From assembly GCF_007748035.1 (NCBI RefSeq), contig NZ_CP036278.1, forward strand, positions 682,001-746,000: a stretch of 64,000 bases of DNA. The letters are read 5' to 3'. Below the pieces are notes generated by a model that was not told the origin of the DNA, ran no database searches, and saw only the letters and a list, made by a program, of their open reading frames with translations. The position numbers and the translations under genes were made by a program. Position 1 is the stretch's first letter. Every line of letters begins with the position of its first letter. This document shows, one piece after another, positions 21,326 to 26,611 of this stretch. This DNA comes from Aeoliella mucimassa. GTDB taxonomy: Bacteria; Planctomycetota; Planctomycetia; Pirellulales; Lacipirellulaceae.

Positions 21326-23026
21326 ATGGATATGGAAAAGATCGTTTCGCTGTGTCGCCGTCGTGGATTCTTGTTCCAGTCGAGCGAAATCTATGGCGGA
21401 CTGAACGGATTCTGGGATTACGGGCCGCTGGGCGTCGAGCTGAAGCGGAACGTCAAAGAGGCGTGGTGGCGCGACATGGTCTCGCAGCACGACGACATGA
21501 GCGTCATCCCCGGGGCCCCCAGCACCTATGAGATGACTGGCCTCGACTGCACGATCATCATGCACCCGCAGGTGTGGAAGTGTAGCGGCCACTTCGATTT
21601 GTTCTGCGACATGATGCAAACCTGCCGCCAGTGTAAGAAGCTTGTTCGGGCCGATCATGTTCAGGACATGCTGAATAATGCTGATTGGACCAATTCCTTT
21701 GCCGCCGAGTGCTTTGTCACTCGCCCAGACGGGGGAGCTACTTTCGACAGTGGAGCCGCCTTGCGTTGGGCGAAGCATCGCAAGTTTGGTAGAAGACTTT
21801 CCCCAGGATTGGCTTTGGTGCGAAATCCTGAAGTTACCATGTCGTGGTTAGCAGAGGATGTGGAGAACGGAACCGCCGGCGAGTTGACACTGTCCCTGGT
21901 CCTTAGCTACATGGCTACCGAGCAGAAGAATCAAACCGGATTGCAGATGCCATGTCCCCACTGTGGAGGCGATCTGACGGAACCTCGCGAGTTCAATTTG
22001 ATGTTCGAGTCGTATGCTGGAGCCATCAAGAGCGAAGATAACCGAGTTTTCCTCCGCCCCGAAACGGCTCAGGGCATCTTCGTGAACTTCAAGAACGTGG
22101 TCGACAGCACCCGGGTCCGCATTCCGTTCGGCATCGCCCAGGTTGGTAAGAGTTTCCGCAACGAGATCACGCCGCGCAACTTTACGTTCCGCTCTCGTGA
22201 GTTCGAGCAGATGGAGATCGAGTTCTTCTGCCATCCCGACACCTCGAAAGAGTGGTACCAGTACTGGCGCGACCGCCGGTTCCGGTGGTACATCGAGCAC
22301 GGCCTGGCCGAAGGGCGGTTGCAACTGCGCGACCACGATCCCGACGAGCTGAGCCATTACTCGACCGGCACCGCCGACATCGAATACGCCTTTCCGTTCC
22401 TGGCAGACGGAGAATTCGGCGAGTTGGAAGGCATCGCCCACCGCGGCGATTTTGACCTTCGCAGCCATATGGAAGGTAAGCTCGATCCAAAGAGCTGCCC
22501 GCTCGAGGTTGAACTCGGCGAAGATGGCAAGCCGAAGTACAAAGGCTCGGGCCGCGACCTGACCTATCGCGATGATTTGACCAACGAGCGGTTCACCCCG
22601 CACGTGATTGAACCCTCGGCCGGCGCCGATCGGGCGACGCTCGCCTTCATGTGCGAAGCCTACACCGAAGACGAGCAACCCGACGAAAAGGGCAAGATGC
22701 AGACCCGCACGGTCATGAAGTTCCACCCGCGGCTCGCGCCGGTGAAAGCGGCCGTGTTCCCGCTGGTCAAAAAGGACGGCATGCCCGAAGTGGCCAAGGA
22801 CCTGTACAAGGCCCTCAAGGCGAAGTTCCCCGTGTTCTACGACGAGAAGGGGGCCGTCGGCCGCCGGTACCGTCGCCAGGACGAAGCGGGCACCCCGTAC
22901 TGCATCACCGTGGATGGCGACACCCTGACCGACAACACGGTCACCCTCCGCGACCGCGACTCGCTCGAACAAATCCGCATCAAGCTCGACGACGTGGTCG
23001 ACGAAATCGAATCGCGGATTGGGTAA
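21326..23026 (+). CDS. glyQS: Glycine--tRNA ligase (dimeric, class II)
   Basis: Charges tRNA-Gly. 566 residues from the ATG at 21326 (MDMEKIVSLCRRRGF); an upstream ATG at 21302 is less likely. Motif 1 lies around FQSSEIYGGLNGFWDYGPLG; motif 2 is FRNEITPRNFTFRSREFEQME; a C-terminal anticodon-binding domain starts near APVKAAVFPLVKK. A zinc-ribbon-like set CRQC (residues 100-103) and CPHC (210-213) is split by about 100 residues. This insertion is AT-richer (21650-21960) than the rest; an insertion at this place is known in the family. This is the single-chain type, not the alpha-beta GlyQ/GlyS type. Confidence 0.95.
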   Translation: MDMEKIVSLCRRRGFLFQSSEIYGGLNGFWDYGPLGVELKRNVKEAWWRDMVSQHDDMSVIPGAPSTYEMTGLDCTIIMHPQVWKCSGHFDLFCDMMQTCRQCKKLVRADHVQDMLNNADWTNSFAAECFVTRPDGGATFDSGAALRWAKHRKFGRRLSPGLALVRNPEVTMSWLAEDVENGTAGELTLSLVLSYMATEQKNQTGLQMPCPHCGGDLTEPREFNLMFESYAGAIKSEDNRVFLRPETAQGIFVNFKNVVDSTRVRIPFGIAQVGKSFRNEITPRNFTFRSREFEQMEIEFFCHPDTSKEWYQYWRDRRFRWYIEHGLAEGRLQLRDHDPDELSHYSTGTADIEYAFPFLADGEFGELEGIAHRGDFDLRSHMEGKLDPKSCPLEVELGEDGKPKYKGSGRDLTYRDDLTNERFTPHVIEPSAGADRATLAFMCEAYTEDEQPDEKGKMQTRTVMKFHPRLAPVKAAVFPLVKKDGMPEVAKDLYKALKAKFPVFYDEKGAVGRRYRRQDEAGTPYCITVDGDTLTDNTVTLRDRDSLEQIRIKLDDVVDEIESRIG

Positions 23027-23073
23027 CATGCGAGGTGTGTGATATTCCTCCAAGTGTGCGGAGAGGCAAGCGT

Positions 23074-23640
23074 TTATTTTGGCATTCTGGAAGCGAGTGT
23101 TCTTAACCCCGTTATCAATACATTGAAACTGTGTGAAGAATTAGTCCCGTCCAGTTTCAAGTGCGGGGATATAGCTCTCGAACCGGCCACCTTTTGGTAT
23201 TGCGGTGCTATCTTTGCAAGCTCTTCTGACGGGCGGGAAATGGTGTCAGGGGTTCGGAATTTCGCTCGGTTTTGCTCTCGTGACAATTTAGGAACACCTA
23301 GGCCCGTTTCGACGGCCGAAAGGTCGCCGAGATAGAAGCTCTCGAGTTCGTGGCAAGCGATCCGAACCAAAGAGTCTGGCCGTCGAGCGTTTTCAAGCTT
23401 CTCCTTTAGACCCTGCTTGATCTGTATGCAATTTCCGCTGTCCTGATCGCGTAGCACAACAAAAGAGGTGTCTGGCATCTGCCAATTTCGTACACGACGT
23501 TCAAGACGCTTATCCAGATCTTGCTTACCTTCAAAAACCATGAATTTAGGTGTGATGTTCGAGGGCAGTATCTGAGGCAGTATGCCCTTAAGCATTTCCT
23601 CGGCAGAGGGTTCCTCTAGTAGGAAAACCAGCATGCTCAT
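23074..23640 (-). CDS. DUF4276 protein (Toprim-like), partner of an AAA ATPase
   Basis: 188 residues. The N-terminal MSMLVFLLEEPSAEEML contains conserved-type Glu (residues 9, 10, 14), and FVVLRDQDSGNC carries an Asp-x-Asp pair (65, 67). Together they fit the metal-binding Glu and DxD of a Toprim nuclease fold. LVRIACHELESFYLGDL is the DUF4276 hallmark. The start overlaps the ATPase stop by 4 bp (ATGA), so both are made together. Coupled ATPase plus Toprim pairs resemble a split OLD-type nuclease. A defence role is inference. The pair is AT-richer than its neighbours, as expected for a transferred module. Confidence 0.75.
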   Translation of the reverse strand: MSMLVFLLEEPSAEEMLKGILPQILPSNITPKFMVFEGKQDLDKRLERRVRNWQMPDTSFVVLRDQDSGNCIQIKQGLKEKLENARRPDSLVRIACHELESFYLGDLSAVETGLGVPKLSREQNRAKFRTPDTISRPSEELAKIAPQYQKVAGSRAISPHLKLDGTNSSHSFNVLITGLRTLASRMPK

Positions 23641-24827
23641 TGAGGATCCACTCCCGTGAAGAGCCCTTCCTTCCAGAGATATCCCATTTGATCTCCATCT
23701 TCCATATATGCAGCGACTTGCTTGTCATCGCTAGCCCTTTTTATATGAGAGTAACCCTCTTCTTTGACAAGCCAAAAGACTTCTTCGAGCTTTACTGCAT
23801 TCAGAAAGTCAGGCGAGTGGGTCGAGACAAAAACTTGACCACCACGATTTGCATAATTACGGAACTCTTCTGCCAATTCCCAAAGCAAGCGTGGGTAGAG
23901 TTGGTTTTCAGGTTCTTCAACACAGAGTAGAGGGTGAGGAGACGGATCGTACAAGAGCACGAGGTAAGCAAACATCTTTATCGTGCCGTCCGAAACATAC
24001 TTATCAATAAATGGGTCTCGAAACGAACCATCTCGAAACTTAAGTAAGAGTCTCCCATCGGCAGTTGACTCCGTCTTGATCTCACCGATTCCAGGAACGC
24101 GATTCTTCATAGCAGTAGTGATTTGCTTGAAGATCTTGGGGTGGTTCTCGTAAAGGTGGTTAGCTACGAGTTGTAGATTGTCACCAGAGTCAGAAAGATG
24201 ATCGTAGTACCCAGCAGCATCTTTGCTGCCTCGTGCCATGTTTATGTGGAAGTCGGAGATATGCCAGTTTTCGATTAACTCACGGAAGGCGTTTGCCGCT
24301 TTGAATCGTTTGAACTGCCCAATGCCTTTAATGGCAAGCATATCTGGGCTATTCAGTGTTTGTTCTTCACGATTGAGATCATCCTCTGTCTTGTCAAAGT
24401 CTTCTTCGTTTGTTACCGCGTATCCTTGCCCCTTCTGGAAATCAAGGAAATGGTAGGGAGAGCCATGCCTTCCACGTTTGTAACGCAGTACTTCTCTATC
24501 TATTCTTGGTTTGTCGCGATGATTGCTGATCTCAAGCAAATAGGTGACGAGGCGATCAGCGCCTGTGATAGTAAGTCGAAATTGCAGTTCAATATAAATG
24601 GATTGATCTTCGGCCCCTCGTGAAACTACCTCGCGAAAACCACCTCGACTTTGAAGAGCTCGCGTGACATTGTAAGTCAGGCAGTCTTTGAGGAATCCAA
24701 AGACATCGAACAGGGTCGATTTTCCAGTGCCATTTGCTCCAACGACCACACAGAATTCGGGTACGTTGGTCATTTCGATATCTCGAAACGCTCTGTAGTT
24801 TCTCAGTCGAATGGTCTCGACTCGCAT
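23637..24827 (-). CDS. AAA ATPase of the ABC/SMC-like OLD type (AAA_21)
   Basis: 396 residues from the ATG at 24827 (MRVETIRLRNYRAFRDIEM); a longer frame from 24893 lacks support. Walker A is GANGTGKST (30-38). The ABC-like signature region is YVSDGTIKMFAYLVLL, Walker B is PLLCVEEPENQLYP, and the H-loop is FVSTHSPDFLNAV. The order matches AAA_21 proteins that limit or guide a nuclease partner. The middle (about 90-270) is a helical insert. It is coupled by overlap to the DUF4276 gene. Its likely work is to drive the partner's nuclease action on invading DNA; that is inference from known OLD and Gabija systems. Confidence 0.85.
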   Translation of the reverse strand: MRVETIRLRNYRAFRDIEMTNVPEFCVVVGANGTGKSTLFDVFGFLKDCLTYNVTRALQSRGGFREVVSRGAEDQSIYIELQFRLTITGADRLVTYLLEISNHRDKPRIDREVLRYKRGRHGSPYHFLDFQKGQGYAVTNEEDFDKTEDDLNREEQTLNSPDMLAIKGIGQFKRFKAANAFRELIENWHISDFHINMARGSKDAAGYYDHLSDSGDNLQLVANHLYENHPKIFKQITTAMKNRVPGIGEIKTESTADGRLLLKFRDGSFRDPFIDKYVSDGTIKMFAYLVLLYDPSPHPLLCVEEPENQLYPRLLWELAEEFRNYANRGGQVFVSTHSPDFLNAVKLEEVFWLVKEEGYSHIKRASDDKQVAAYMEDGDQMGYLWKEGLFTGVDPQ

Positions 24828-25074
24828 AGGACACCCAAAATTGCTAGTGGGGTACGAAATAACCGCCCGCTTTGTTGTGTTAGCTATGAGCACTAATAAT
24901 TTGGATACTTGTTAGACTCACAAGGTCTCCAACTGCACTACAACTACAGCTTATCATAGCAATTTATGGGAGAAGTGTAGAGGTGGTGCGACAACGAGGG
25001 CCAGGGAGTATGGCAACAGGGAATTTCCGTCACCTCCTGGTAGAAGCGCCCCTTCGGGGCGATCGCATGCGCAC
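24828..25074. other. Spacer upstream of the AAA/DUF4276 pair
   Basis: AT-rich spacer with no gene. It should contain the promoter of the pair. A GCCCC-TTC-GGGGC hairpin at 25048-25060 lies close to the terminator of the sugar dehydrogenase gene. Confidence 0.4.
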
Positions 25075-25120
25075 AAAAAATCCCCCGCAACTGGTGAGCT
25101 TGCTCATCGGCTGCGGGGGA
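25075..25120 (-). terminator. Rho-independent terminator of the sugar dehydrogenase gene
   Basis: On the minus strand, TCCCCCGCA (complement of 25112-25120) pairs with TGCGGGGGA (complement of 25081-25089) and is followed by a run of six T (25075-25080). It lies 13 bp past the stop of the dehydrogenase gene. The 22-nt loop contains a further small hairpin. Confidence 0.85.
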
Positions 25121-25132
25121 TTGGTCTTTCGT

Positions 25133-26551
25133 TTATTGCCGGATCGCGCGGCCTTGGTTGGTTAGCTTGAGCACCACGTCGGGCTTGTTGAGGATCACAT
25201 ACACCGAGCCGTCGGGGCCGCATTCGACGTCGCGCACTCGGCCGGCGTTTTTCAGCAGTAGCTCTTGGTGCAGCACGCGGTCTTCGTCTACCACCAAGCG
25301 GCGAAGCTCTTCGTGGCCCAGGCCGGTGACCAGCAGGTTGTTTTCCCACAGCGGGAACGCGTCGCCGGTTACGAAGTCGGCCCCGCACACTGCGATCGAT
25401 GGTACCCAGTACAGCACGGGTTGCTGAGTGCCTTCGAGCGTCAGGTCTTCGGAGATGATGGTGCCGTTGTAGTCGATGCCGTAGGTGCTTTTGGGCCAAC
25501 CGTAGTTCTTAGCCGGGTAGATGATGTTCACTTCGTCGCCACCCATCGGGCCATGTTCGGTTTCCCAAATCAGCCCGGTGGTGGGGTGCACTGCCAGGCC
25601 TTGGGGGTTGCGATGGCCGTAGCTGTAAACCGTGTTGAGTCCCTCGCTACCATCCGCGTAAGGATTGTCGTCGGGAATCGAACCGTCGGGATTCACCCGG
25701 TGGATCTTGCCGTTGGGTTGCTTGGTGTCCTGCGCGCGTTCCATGGCCCCGCGATCGCCGACCGAAACGAGCAGGTGCCCTTCGTGGTCGAACGCCAGGC
25801 GGCTGCCGTAGTGGAAACGCGTAGTCGAGTACGACGACGGCGGGCAGCTGAACACCACCTCTTCTTCGACCCACTTGTGGTCCTTGAGCTTGCCGCGGAC
25901 CACGCGAGTCATGGCGGGAGCGTCGCGATTGTTGCCAGCCAGCGAATGCGTGTAGGCCAGGTAGACCCAGCCGTTTTCGGCGTAGTTGGGATCGGCTGCG
26001 ACGTCCATGTAACCACCCTGGTTAATCGGTAGCGTCTCCGGGGTGCCTTCGATCGGATCGGGATGCAGCTTGCCATTGATGACAACCCGCAACCGGCCTG
26101 GGCGTTCGGTAAGTAGCGCGGTCGAGTCGTCGAGGAAGATCAGGCTCCATGGGGTATCGATCCCGTCGGCAATCCACTTTTCGACCCCAACGTCGTAGTG
26201 ACGGGTGAGCAGCTTCTCGGGCATCGGCGGTGGTTCGATGCCGGCCTGGTTTTGGGCGTCGCGAATGTACTTTACCAGGCCTTGGATTTCGGAGTCCGAC
26301 AGCACCTTGTCGTAGTCGGGCATGCCGACCGAGGAGATGCCGTACTTAATGTTACGCGTGAGGTCGCCATCGCCGCGACCAAACTGCCAGATGCCATCGA
26401 CCATGCTCTGGGCGTTGCCGCCGGTCAGGTCTTTGCCATGGCACTGGGCGCACCGTTGTTGGTAGATGGCGTCGATCGACGACTGGGCGTACAAGTTGCC
26501 AGCCAGCGTGGCGAGCAACACGAGCGAGAGCAAGCGAAACACGTGGGACAT
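25133..26551 (-). CDS. Cytochrome c / PQQ-dependent sugar dehydrogenase fusion
   Basis: 472 residues from the ATG at 26551, with a signal peptide ending near LYAQS. The first 100 residues are a class I cytochrome c: CAQCH binds haem and VGMPDY supplies the distal Met. Then comes a six-bladed propeller of the soluble aldose dehydrogenase (YliI-like) type, with DTPWSLIFLDD, SVGDRGAMERAQD, SYGHRNPQGLAVHP and EHGPMGGDEVNII. Such enzymes oxidise aldoses with PQQ in the periplasm and pass electrons to a c-type cytochrome, here fused. No PQQ synthesis gene is in view. Monocistronic, with its own terminator. Confidence 0.88.
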   Translation of the reverse strand: MSHVFRLLSLVLLATLAGNLYAQSSIDAIYQQRCAQCHGKDLTGGNAQSMVDGIWQFGRGDGDLTRNIKYGISSVGMPDYDKVLSDSEIQGLVKYIRDAQNQAGIEPPPMPEKLLTRHYDVGVEKWIADGIDTPWSLIFLDDSTALLTERPGRLRVVINGKLHPDPIEGTPETLPINQGGYMDVAADPNYAENGWVYLAYTHSLAGNNRDAPAMTRVVRGKLKDHKWVEEEVVFSCPPSSYSTTRFHYGSRLAFDHEGHLLVSVGDRGAMERAQDTKQPNGKIHRVNPDGSIPDDNPYADGSEGLNTVYSYGHRNPQGLAVHPTTGLIWETEHGPMGGDEVNIIYPAKNYGWPKSTYGIDYNGTIISEDLTLEGTQQPVLYWVPSIAVCGADFVTGDAFPLWENNLLVTGLGHEELRRLVVDEDRVLHQELLLKNAGRVRDVECGPDGSVYVILNKPDVVLKLTNQGRAIRQ

Positions 26552-26611
26552 GGACAGATTCAATTTCGGGGTTGAAGAATCGTGAACGCGGGCGGCCCAG
26601 CCAATGGCGGG

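Follow-up and report, generated by a model that had tools for sequence, protein, structure and literature searches.

Two adjacent genes occupy the minus strand between glyQS and a glucose/sorbosone dehydrogenase gene within the window, by which we mean the whole 64-kb stretch of DNA that was analyzed. The gene for an ATPase (24827 to 23637) comes first and is followed by the gene for a DUF4276 protein (23640 to 23074); glyQS ends at 23026 in convergent orientation, and the dehydrogenase gene (25133-26563) lies on the minus strand. The features of the locus are as follows.

23074..23640, minus strand: gene for a DUF4276 protein, 188 aa, ATG start (open reading frame; PF14103, E=1.1e-15; PADLOC PDLC04143, E=7.9e-79)
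23637..24827, minus strand: gene for an AAA_21 / SMC-Rad50-PtuA-type ABC ATPase, 396 aa, ATG start (PF13304, E=1.1e-28; PDLC04144, E=3.2e-218)
23637..23640, minus strand: 4-bp ATGA stop/start overlap of the ATPase and DUF4276 genes (read from the sequence)
23027..25133, no strand: variable slot from glyQS to the glucose/sorbosone dehydrogenase gene (alignments to congeners break here)

An earlier note on this DNA had placed the pair beside glyQS, with an overlap of 4 bp, two separate chains and no third gene. All of this was borne out: the ATGA overlap likely brings translational coupling, the ATPase and DUF4276 proteins are encoded by two open reading frames here and are also separate in all 80 relatives, and a scan of 10 nearby genes (encoding UbiA, a DDE transposase, UbiX, UbiE, ComB, GlyQS, the dehydrogenase, a DUF1559 protein, NadD, and PriA) gave zero PADLOC matches at E<=1e-10. 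The window copy is thus solitary among housekeeping genes and outside any defense island. The mechanical open reading frame of the ATPase extends to a GTG at 24893; the ATG at 24827 was taken as the start because homologs begin at that ATG. The host genome (6.6 Mb, single contig) contains one DUF4276 gene and one match to this ATPase model.

Identity of the pair and motifs of the ATPase

Both proteins match the component models of HEC-01 in PADLOC, the ATPase over profile positions 1-395 of 395 and the DUF4276 protein over residues 1-185, so that the two models are matched by two adjacent, overlapping genes. Other PADLOC models retrieved with the ATPase (AriA, AbiLi, and mad3) are far weaker, and the PADLOC matches of the DUF4276 protein are confined to HEC-01 models. 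The subunit names seem to be swapped in the models matched here (PDLC04143, DUF4276, is HEC-01A and PDLC04144, the ATPase, is HEC-01B); in the other HEC-01 models seen (PDLC04174-04206), A is the ATPase and B the DUF4276 protein. HEC-01 stands for Hma-embedded candidate 1 in PADLOC-DB 2.0.0 and, according to citing papers, belongs to the candidate systems put forward by Payne et al. 2024 (doi 10.1101/2024.01.29.577857); HEC-05 and HEC-06 of this series are described as functional. Our literature search found no test of HEC-01, the preprint of Payne et al. itself lying outside the literature covered, and no paper mentioning DUF4276; a structural assignment may exist beyond that literature. By these strong matches the pair is a further member of a catalogued candidate system. 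The earlier proposal of a split OLD-type defense module is well supported and loses its novelty in kind, as PARIS was already known and the pair is catalogued as HEC-01.

The ATPase matches AAA_21 with 101.6 bits (cut-off 27) and AAA_15 with 69.7 bits (cut-off 32.1), whereas DUF4276 is the sole Pfam match of the small protein. The Pfam title of AAA_21 led us to consider an AbiE-type toxin-antitoxin system; this candidate was rejected, as Pfam finds neither an AbiEi antitoxin nor an AbiEii nucleotidyltransferase domain in the two proteins. The assignment as an AAA_21 ATPase with Walker A, Walker B and an H-loop, made initially from the letters, is upheld by Pfam, PADLOC and alignments of relatives.

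24717..24740, minus strand: Walker A GANGTGKS, ATPase residues 30-37 (G30, N32, G35, and K36 invariant in relatives)
23982..23993, minus strand: ABC signature-like SDGT, ATPase residues 279-282 (invariant in relatives)
23913..23930, minus strand: Walker B LLCVEE, ATPase residues 300-305 (E304 and E305 invariant in relatives)
23811..23825, minus strand: H-loop STHSP, ATPase residues 335-339 (H337 invariant in relatives)

The Walker A pattern GxNGxGK (residues 30-36) and the Walker B core EEPEN (residues 304-308) are invariant or nearly so among relatives, and SDGT presumably represents the ABC signature motif. The AlphaFold2 model of the ATPase (pLDDT 90.5) aligns with PtuA, SMC, and Rad50 heads at Z scores of about 20, and Foldseek ranks PtuA of Septu/retrons first. 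The model thus predicts an SMC/Rad50/PtuA-type head of the ABC-type dimerizing kind. Since such heads dimerize, ATP-dependent assembly is expected from knowledge of the family.

Predicted fold and metal site of the DUF4276 protein

As modeled by AlphaFold2 (mean pLDDT 97.4), the small protein has a beta-alpha-beta-alpha-beta-alpha-beta arrangement followed by helices. Foldseek places the C-terminal region of Burkholderia pseudomallei (Bp) OLD at rank 1 (E 5.4e-3, probability 1.00), and VIA-align identifies the OLD C-terminal entries 6nk8, 6njv, 6njx, and 6njw with Z scores of 10.0-11.4 and 166-168 aligned residues, the top match being 6nk8 (Z 11.4, 166 of 188 residues). The first unrelated folds are lumazine synthases, at Z scores of 8.2 and lower. 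An uncharacterized Pyrococcus protein, PH0156 (2p62), reaches Z 10.0, as high as some of the OLD entries, and could be a relative whose structure is already solved.

The Toprim domain is recognized by an invariant Glu, by a Gly that follows strand 2 and by a DxD motif, and the metal-binding and catalytic residues of Bp OLD are E400, E404, D455, D457, T506, E508, and K562 (Schiltz et al., PMC6755086). Counterparts in DUF4276 were assigned by their order and spacing in the predicted model, those for E98/E100 and K150 being proposals.

23614..23616, minus strand: E9, Toprim glutamate after strand 1 (strand 2-8), counterpart of Bp OLD E400 (invariant)
23440..23448, minus strand: DxD motif D65-x-D67 at the end of strand 3 (strand 58-65), counterpart of Bp OLD D455/D457 (invariant)
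23341..23349, minus strand: E98-L-E100 directly after strand 4, proposed counterpart of Bp OLD T506/E508 (metal B) (invariant)
23191..23193, minus strand: K150, proposed counterpart of Bp OLD catalytic K562 (YQK motif at least 90% conserved)

All 84 sequences compared share E9, D65, D67, E98, and E100, and G38 of the family follows strand 2. K150 lies 50 residues past E100, where the equivalent spacing in Bp OLD is 54. By order and spacing, conserved counterparts can be proposed for every listed Bp OLD residue except E404, whose counterpart is apparently missing, position 13 of DUF4276 being an alanine (Ala13).

In sequence comparison, hhalign of DUF4276 against OLD Toprim and DUF4435 sets placed the motifs in register but gave scores of 18-24, while reversed or unrelated controls reached up to 27. 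Because these profile-profile scores are no better than those of controls, the proposed homology of DUF4276 and OLD rests on fold and motifs. When the PDB was searched by sequence alone, using the DUF4276 protein and its profile of 84 sequences, nothing meaningful came up, and AriB was absent from the results of two PDB searches made with DUF4435 domains; the link between AriB and the OLD Toprim is itself a weak HHpred match (E 0.02; PMC9122126). The structure prediction that the earlier note had proposed for the 188-residue protein returned a Toprim-like fold with OLD C-terminal regions as its closest matches, in keeping with that note's reading of the motifs as those of a Toprim nuclease, and the proposed counterparts of the OLD metal-site residues are conserved with the exception of that of E404. 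We regard the DUF4276 protein as a predicted OLD-type Toprim nuclease domain with a helical region, for which fold and motifs suggest nuclease activity.

Relatives, insertion site and genomic context

A scan of a genome collection with the DUF4276 profile matched at least 509 stretches from many phyla. In all 80 loci kept among these matches the ATPase gene lies directly upstream of the DUF4276 gene (76 partners found automatically and 4 by inspection of open reading frames), and the overlap is exactly 4 bp in 50 of the 79 relatives measured, most other lengths reflecting the choice of the most upstream start codon. Among viral contigs, a query with the single DUF4276 sequence found none and an alignment query found three, each with both genes; the ATPase gene comes first in all 80 genome and 3 viral loci. 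A search of an annotated phage collection found no DUF4276 relatives at E 1e-5. The pair also occurs on plasmids of cyanobacteria, Meiothermus, Rahnella, and Pseudomonas.

Among the matches listed, the best genome match to the window DUF4276 protein is from a planctomycete, and a tree of the ATPase gives the window protein a further planctomycete sequence as its sister. The four labeled planctomycete rows nevertheless require four separate placements, so that host taxonomy is not closely followed; the tree comes from a quick search, and placement counts of such trees are no proof of transfer. A mirror-tree comparison of ATPase and DUF4276 gave a significant correlation, on which we do not lean because it is weak (r 0.19). 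One HEC-01A copy of the order (G307:C432:6816-7376) contains an in-frame TAG and is probably a decayed gene.

The pair has a GC content of 0.471, compared with 0.593 +/- 0.036 for windows of equal length in the 64 kb, of which only 1 in 623 is as AT-rich; its GC3 is 0.45-0.51, against 0.68-0.84 for the neighbors. An AT-richness remarked on at first reading is thus apparent in both measures. The neighboring genes glyQS and dehydrogenase are also adjacent in two congeners (G001 and G003), and BLASTN alignments to these loci (L138 and L139) end at 23025-23027 and resume at 25134-25158. In G003 (L139) the slot is empty, with about 50-75 bp between glyQS and the dehydrogenase gene, whereas in G001 (L138, 2117-3914) it is filled by a DUF1559-like gene and an open reading frame resembling an IS200-type (REP-associated) transposase. 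As the L138 slot holds other genes, insertion at this site may have happened repeatedly in the genus. DUF4276 is absent from all three congeners sampled and from nearly all family members; across the order, 20 of 196 genomes have any DUF4276 match, and under half of these 20 are strong. This patchy presence, together with a site that is empty or differently filled, argues against the conserved core context, without variation between strains, that the earlier note had named as counting against its proposal. We conclude that the pair was gained by horizontal transfer.

A search of the insertion flanks found no target-site duplication and no flanking repeats. A DDE transposase gene (PF01609; 17389-18660, minus strand) lies about 4.4 kb from the pair, and nothing was found that links the two. 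Just downstream of the dehydrogenase gene is a strong inverted repeat (25079-25122, 21-nt arms, 86%), likely a terminator that would separate this gene from the same-strand pair.

Several relatives sit inside known defense operons. Four loci (L030, L041, L047, and L084) have it between HmaB and HmaC, and two (L071 and L080) have it with a partial Hma. It is found between PglX and PglZ of BREX in a Marinamargulisbacteria bin (L032, 4817-6576), between type III Mod and Res in two loci (L056 and L101), downstream of a type III methyltransferase in L104, in L063 with a DrmD-like helicase on one side and a type III methyltransferase on the other, and next to ZorE in L095. In view of the BREX and zorE copies (L032 and L095), HEC-01 is embedded in several defense systems and not in Hma alone. 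On a Meiothermus plasmid the pair is within a type I R-M operon. Of two further plasmid copies, one, a prophage copy from Rahnella, is located between an antitermination gene and the lysis genes, a usual accessory position, and the other is on a conjugative plasmid. Many other copies are solitary among unrelated genes, and most immediate neighbors elsewhere are not defense genes. We give these named embeddings and no fold enrichment because the PADLOC comparison of near and far neighbors, which covered the 25 most frequent families, is too coarse. The defense-island association suggested for the pair is seen where it is embedded in Hma and BREX operons or in restriction operons of type I and type III, and does not extend to the window copy.

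Proposed function and comparison with known systems

We consider it probable that the pair is a defense module with a Toprim-type effector, its defense role suggested by context and the nuclease by fold and motifs. The ATPase would act as sensor and scaffold, translationally coupled to a separate OLD-type Toprim nuclease, and its oligomers may restrain or position the Toprim protein, as in PARIS and OLD. A phage-derived cue would alter the ATPase so that the Toprim protein is released or activated; this protein would then cut nucleic acid by two-metal catalysis involving E9, D65, D67, E98/E100, and K150, and the cleavage would halt phage replication, while the host cell would probably be arrested or die. 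In this scheme we infer that the effector is catalytically active, that the two proteins form a complex, what the trigger is, that the target is either tRNA (the PARIS case) or DNA (the OLD and Gabija case), and that infection is abortive.

Two narrower accounts are sub-cases of the defense-module reading and differ in what is cut. A PARIS-like abortive infection, in which DUF4276 is a tRNA (RNA) nuclease freed from the ATPase by a phage anti-restriction protein, would agree with a gene order and split like those of ariA-ariB, with the match of the ATPase to AriA models (E 1.8e-26), with the cleavage of tRNA-Lys by AriB (PMC12409363), and with the resemblance of the DUF4276 ELES motif to the ELES/EVEN-type motifs of DUF4435 domains. 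However, Pfam at E<=1 does not identify the effector as DUF4435, the AriA match resembles that to a generic AAA_21 model, and the motif likeness is without statistical support, and we consider this account rather unlikely. That the ATPase instead gates nicking or degradation of phage (and host) DNA by a Toprim domain, in the manner of OLD or Gabija, is favored by the closest fold, that of the C-terminal region of class 2 OLD; the likeness takes in the helical part, which supplies metal B ligands and the lysine. Fold likeness does not reveal the substrate, however, as AriB, with an RNase M5-like catalytic site, cuts tRNA, and no helicase partner adjoins the pair; we regard DNA cleavage as possible and hold it with some doubt.

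Outside defense, two overlapping mobile genes, often on plasmids, with an AAA_21 domain titled "putative AbiEii toxin, Type IV TA" in Pfam, might be read as a toxin-antitoxin pair kept by addiction, but the title is historical, and in the analogous PARIS system single deletions are non-toxic and a toxin-antitoxin mechanism was excluded (PMC9122126), which makes this improbable. The least probable reading is a housekeeping nuclease for DNA repair or chromosome maintenance, of the SbcCD/Rad50 or RecF/OLD kind. The SMC/Rad50-like ATPase head, the placement of the window copy beside glyQS and near priA, and a reported cell-cycle role of an archaeal OLD ATPase (PMC12796447) would suit such a nuclease; it is difficult to reconcile with absence from congeners and patchiness in the order, an empty site in a congener, foreign GC3, and the occurrence of the pair on plasmids, in prophage contexts, and within operons for restriction, BREX, and Hma.

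Within the preferred defense-module reading, we tentatively suggest, at somewhat less than even confidence, that HEC-01 forms its own split OLD class distinct from PARIS, with a separate Toprim family, a near-complete metal site, and its own trigger and target. HEC-01 is one of many catalogued candidate defenses, and with its DUF4276 subunit assigned to the OLD/Toprim nuclease fold, what was a domain of unknown function becomes an enzyme that can be tested, for which catalytic residues are named and a clear comparison with PARIS is at hand; whether the target is tRNA or DNA, and what the release cue is, would bear on the evolution of split and fused ATPase-Toprim systems.

Among catalogued systems, HEC-01 shares the two-gene layout, a near end-to-end match and relatives between HmaB and HmaC, and the window copy differs in lying outside Hma, between glyQS and the dehydrogenase gene. 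PARIS is a proposed class 4 OLD system. It is a known split ATPase/Toprim system (AriA/AriB; PMC9122126, PMC10568477), in which AriA holds AriB until a phage trigger frees it to cleave tRNA (PMC12409363). PARIS likewise has an ABC-type ATPase gene, of the same general ATPase kind, followed by a separate Toprim effector gene. Its detection rule calls for a DUF4435 partner (AriB, PF14491) at a score of at least 27 bits (PMC9122126); the window ATPase has the AAA_15/AAA_21 assignment expected of a PARIS ATPase, but its partner is DUF4276 (PF14103) and not DUF4435. OLD proteins of class 1 and class 2 (GajA of Gabija) also combine an ATPase with a Toprim and helical domain, and the class 2 C-terminal region is closest to the predicted DUF4276 fold (Z 11.4); they differ in being single polypeptides, the counterpart of OLD E404 is Ala here, and unlike Gabija, the window pair has no UvrD-like helicase gene beside it. 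Septu and retron PtuAB are two-gene systems of an ATPase and a nuclease, and the ATPase head is closest to PtuA by Foldseek, but the partner of PtuA is an HNH protein (PtuB), whereas here it is a Toprim-like DUF4276 protein.
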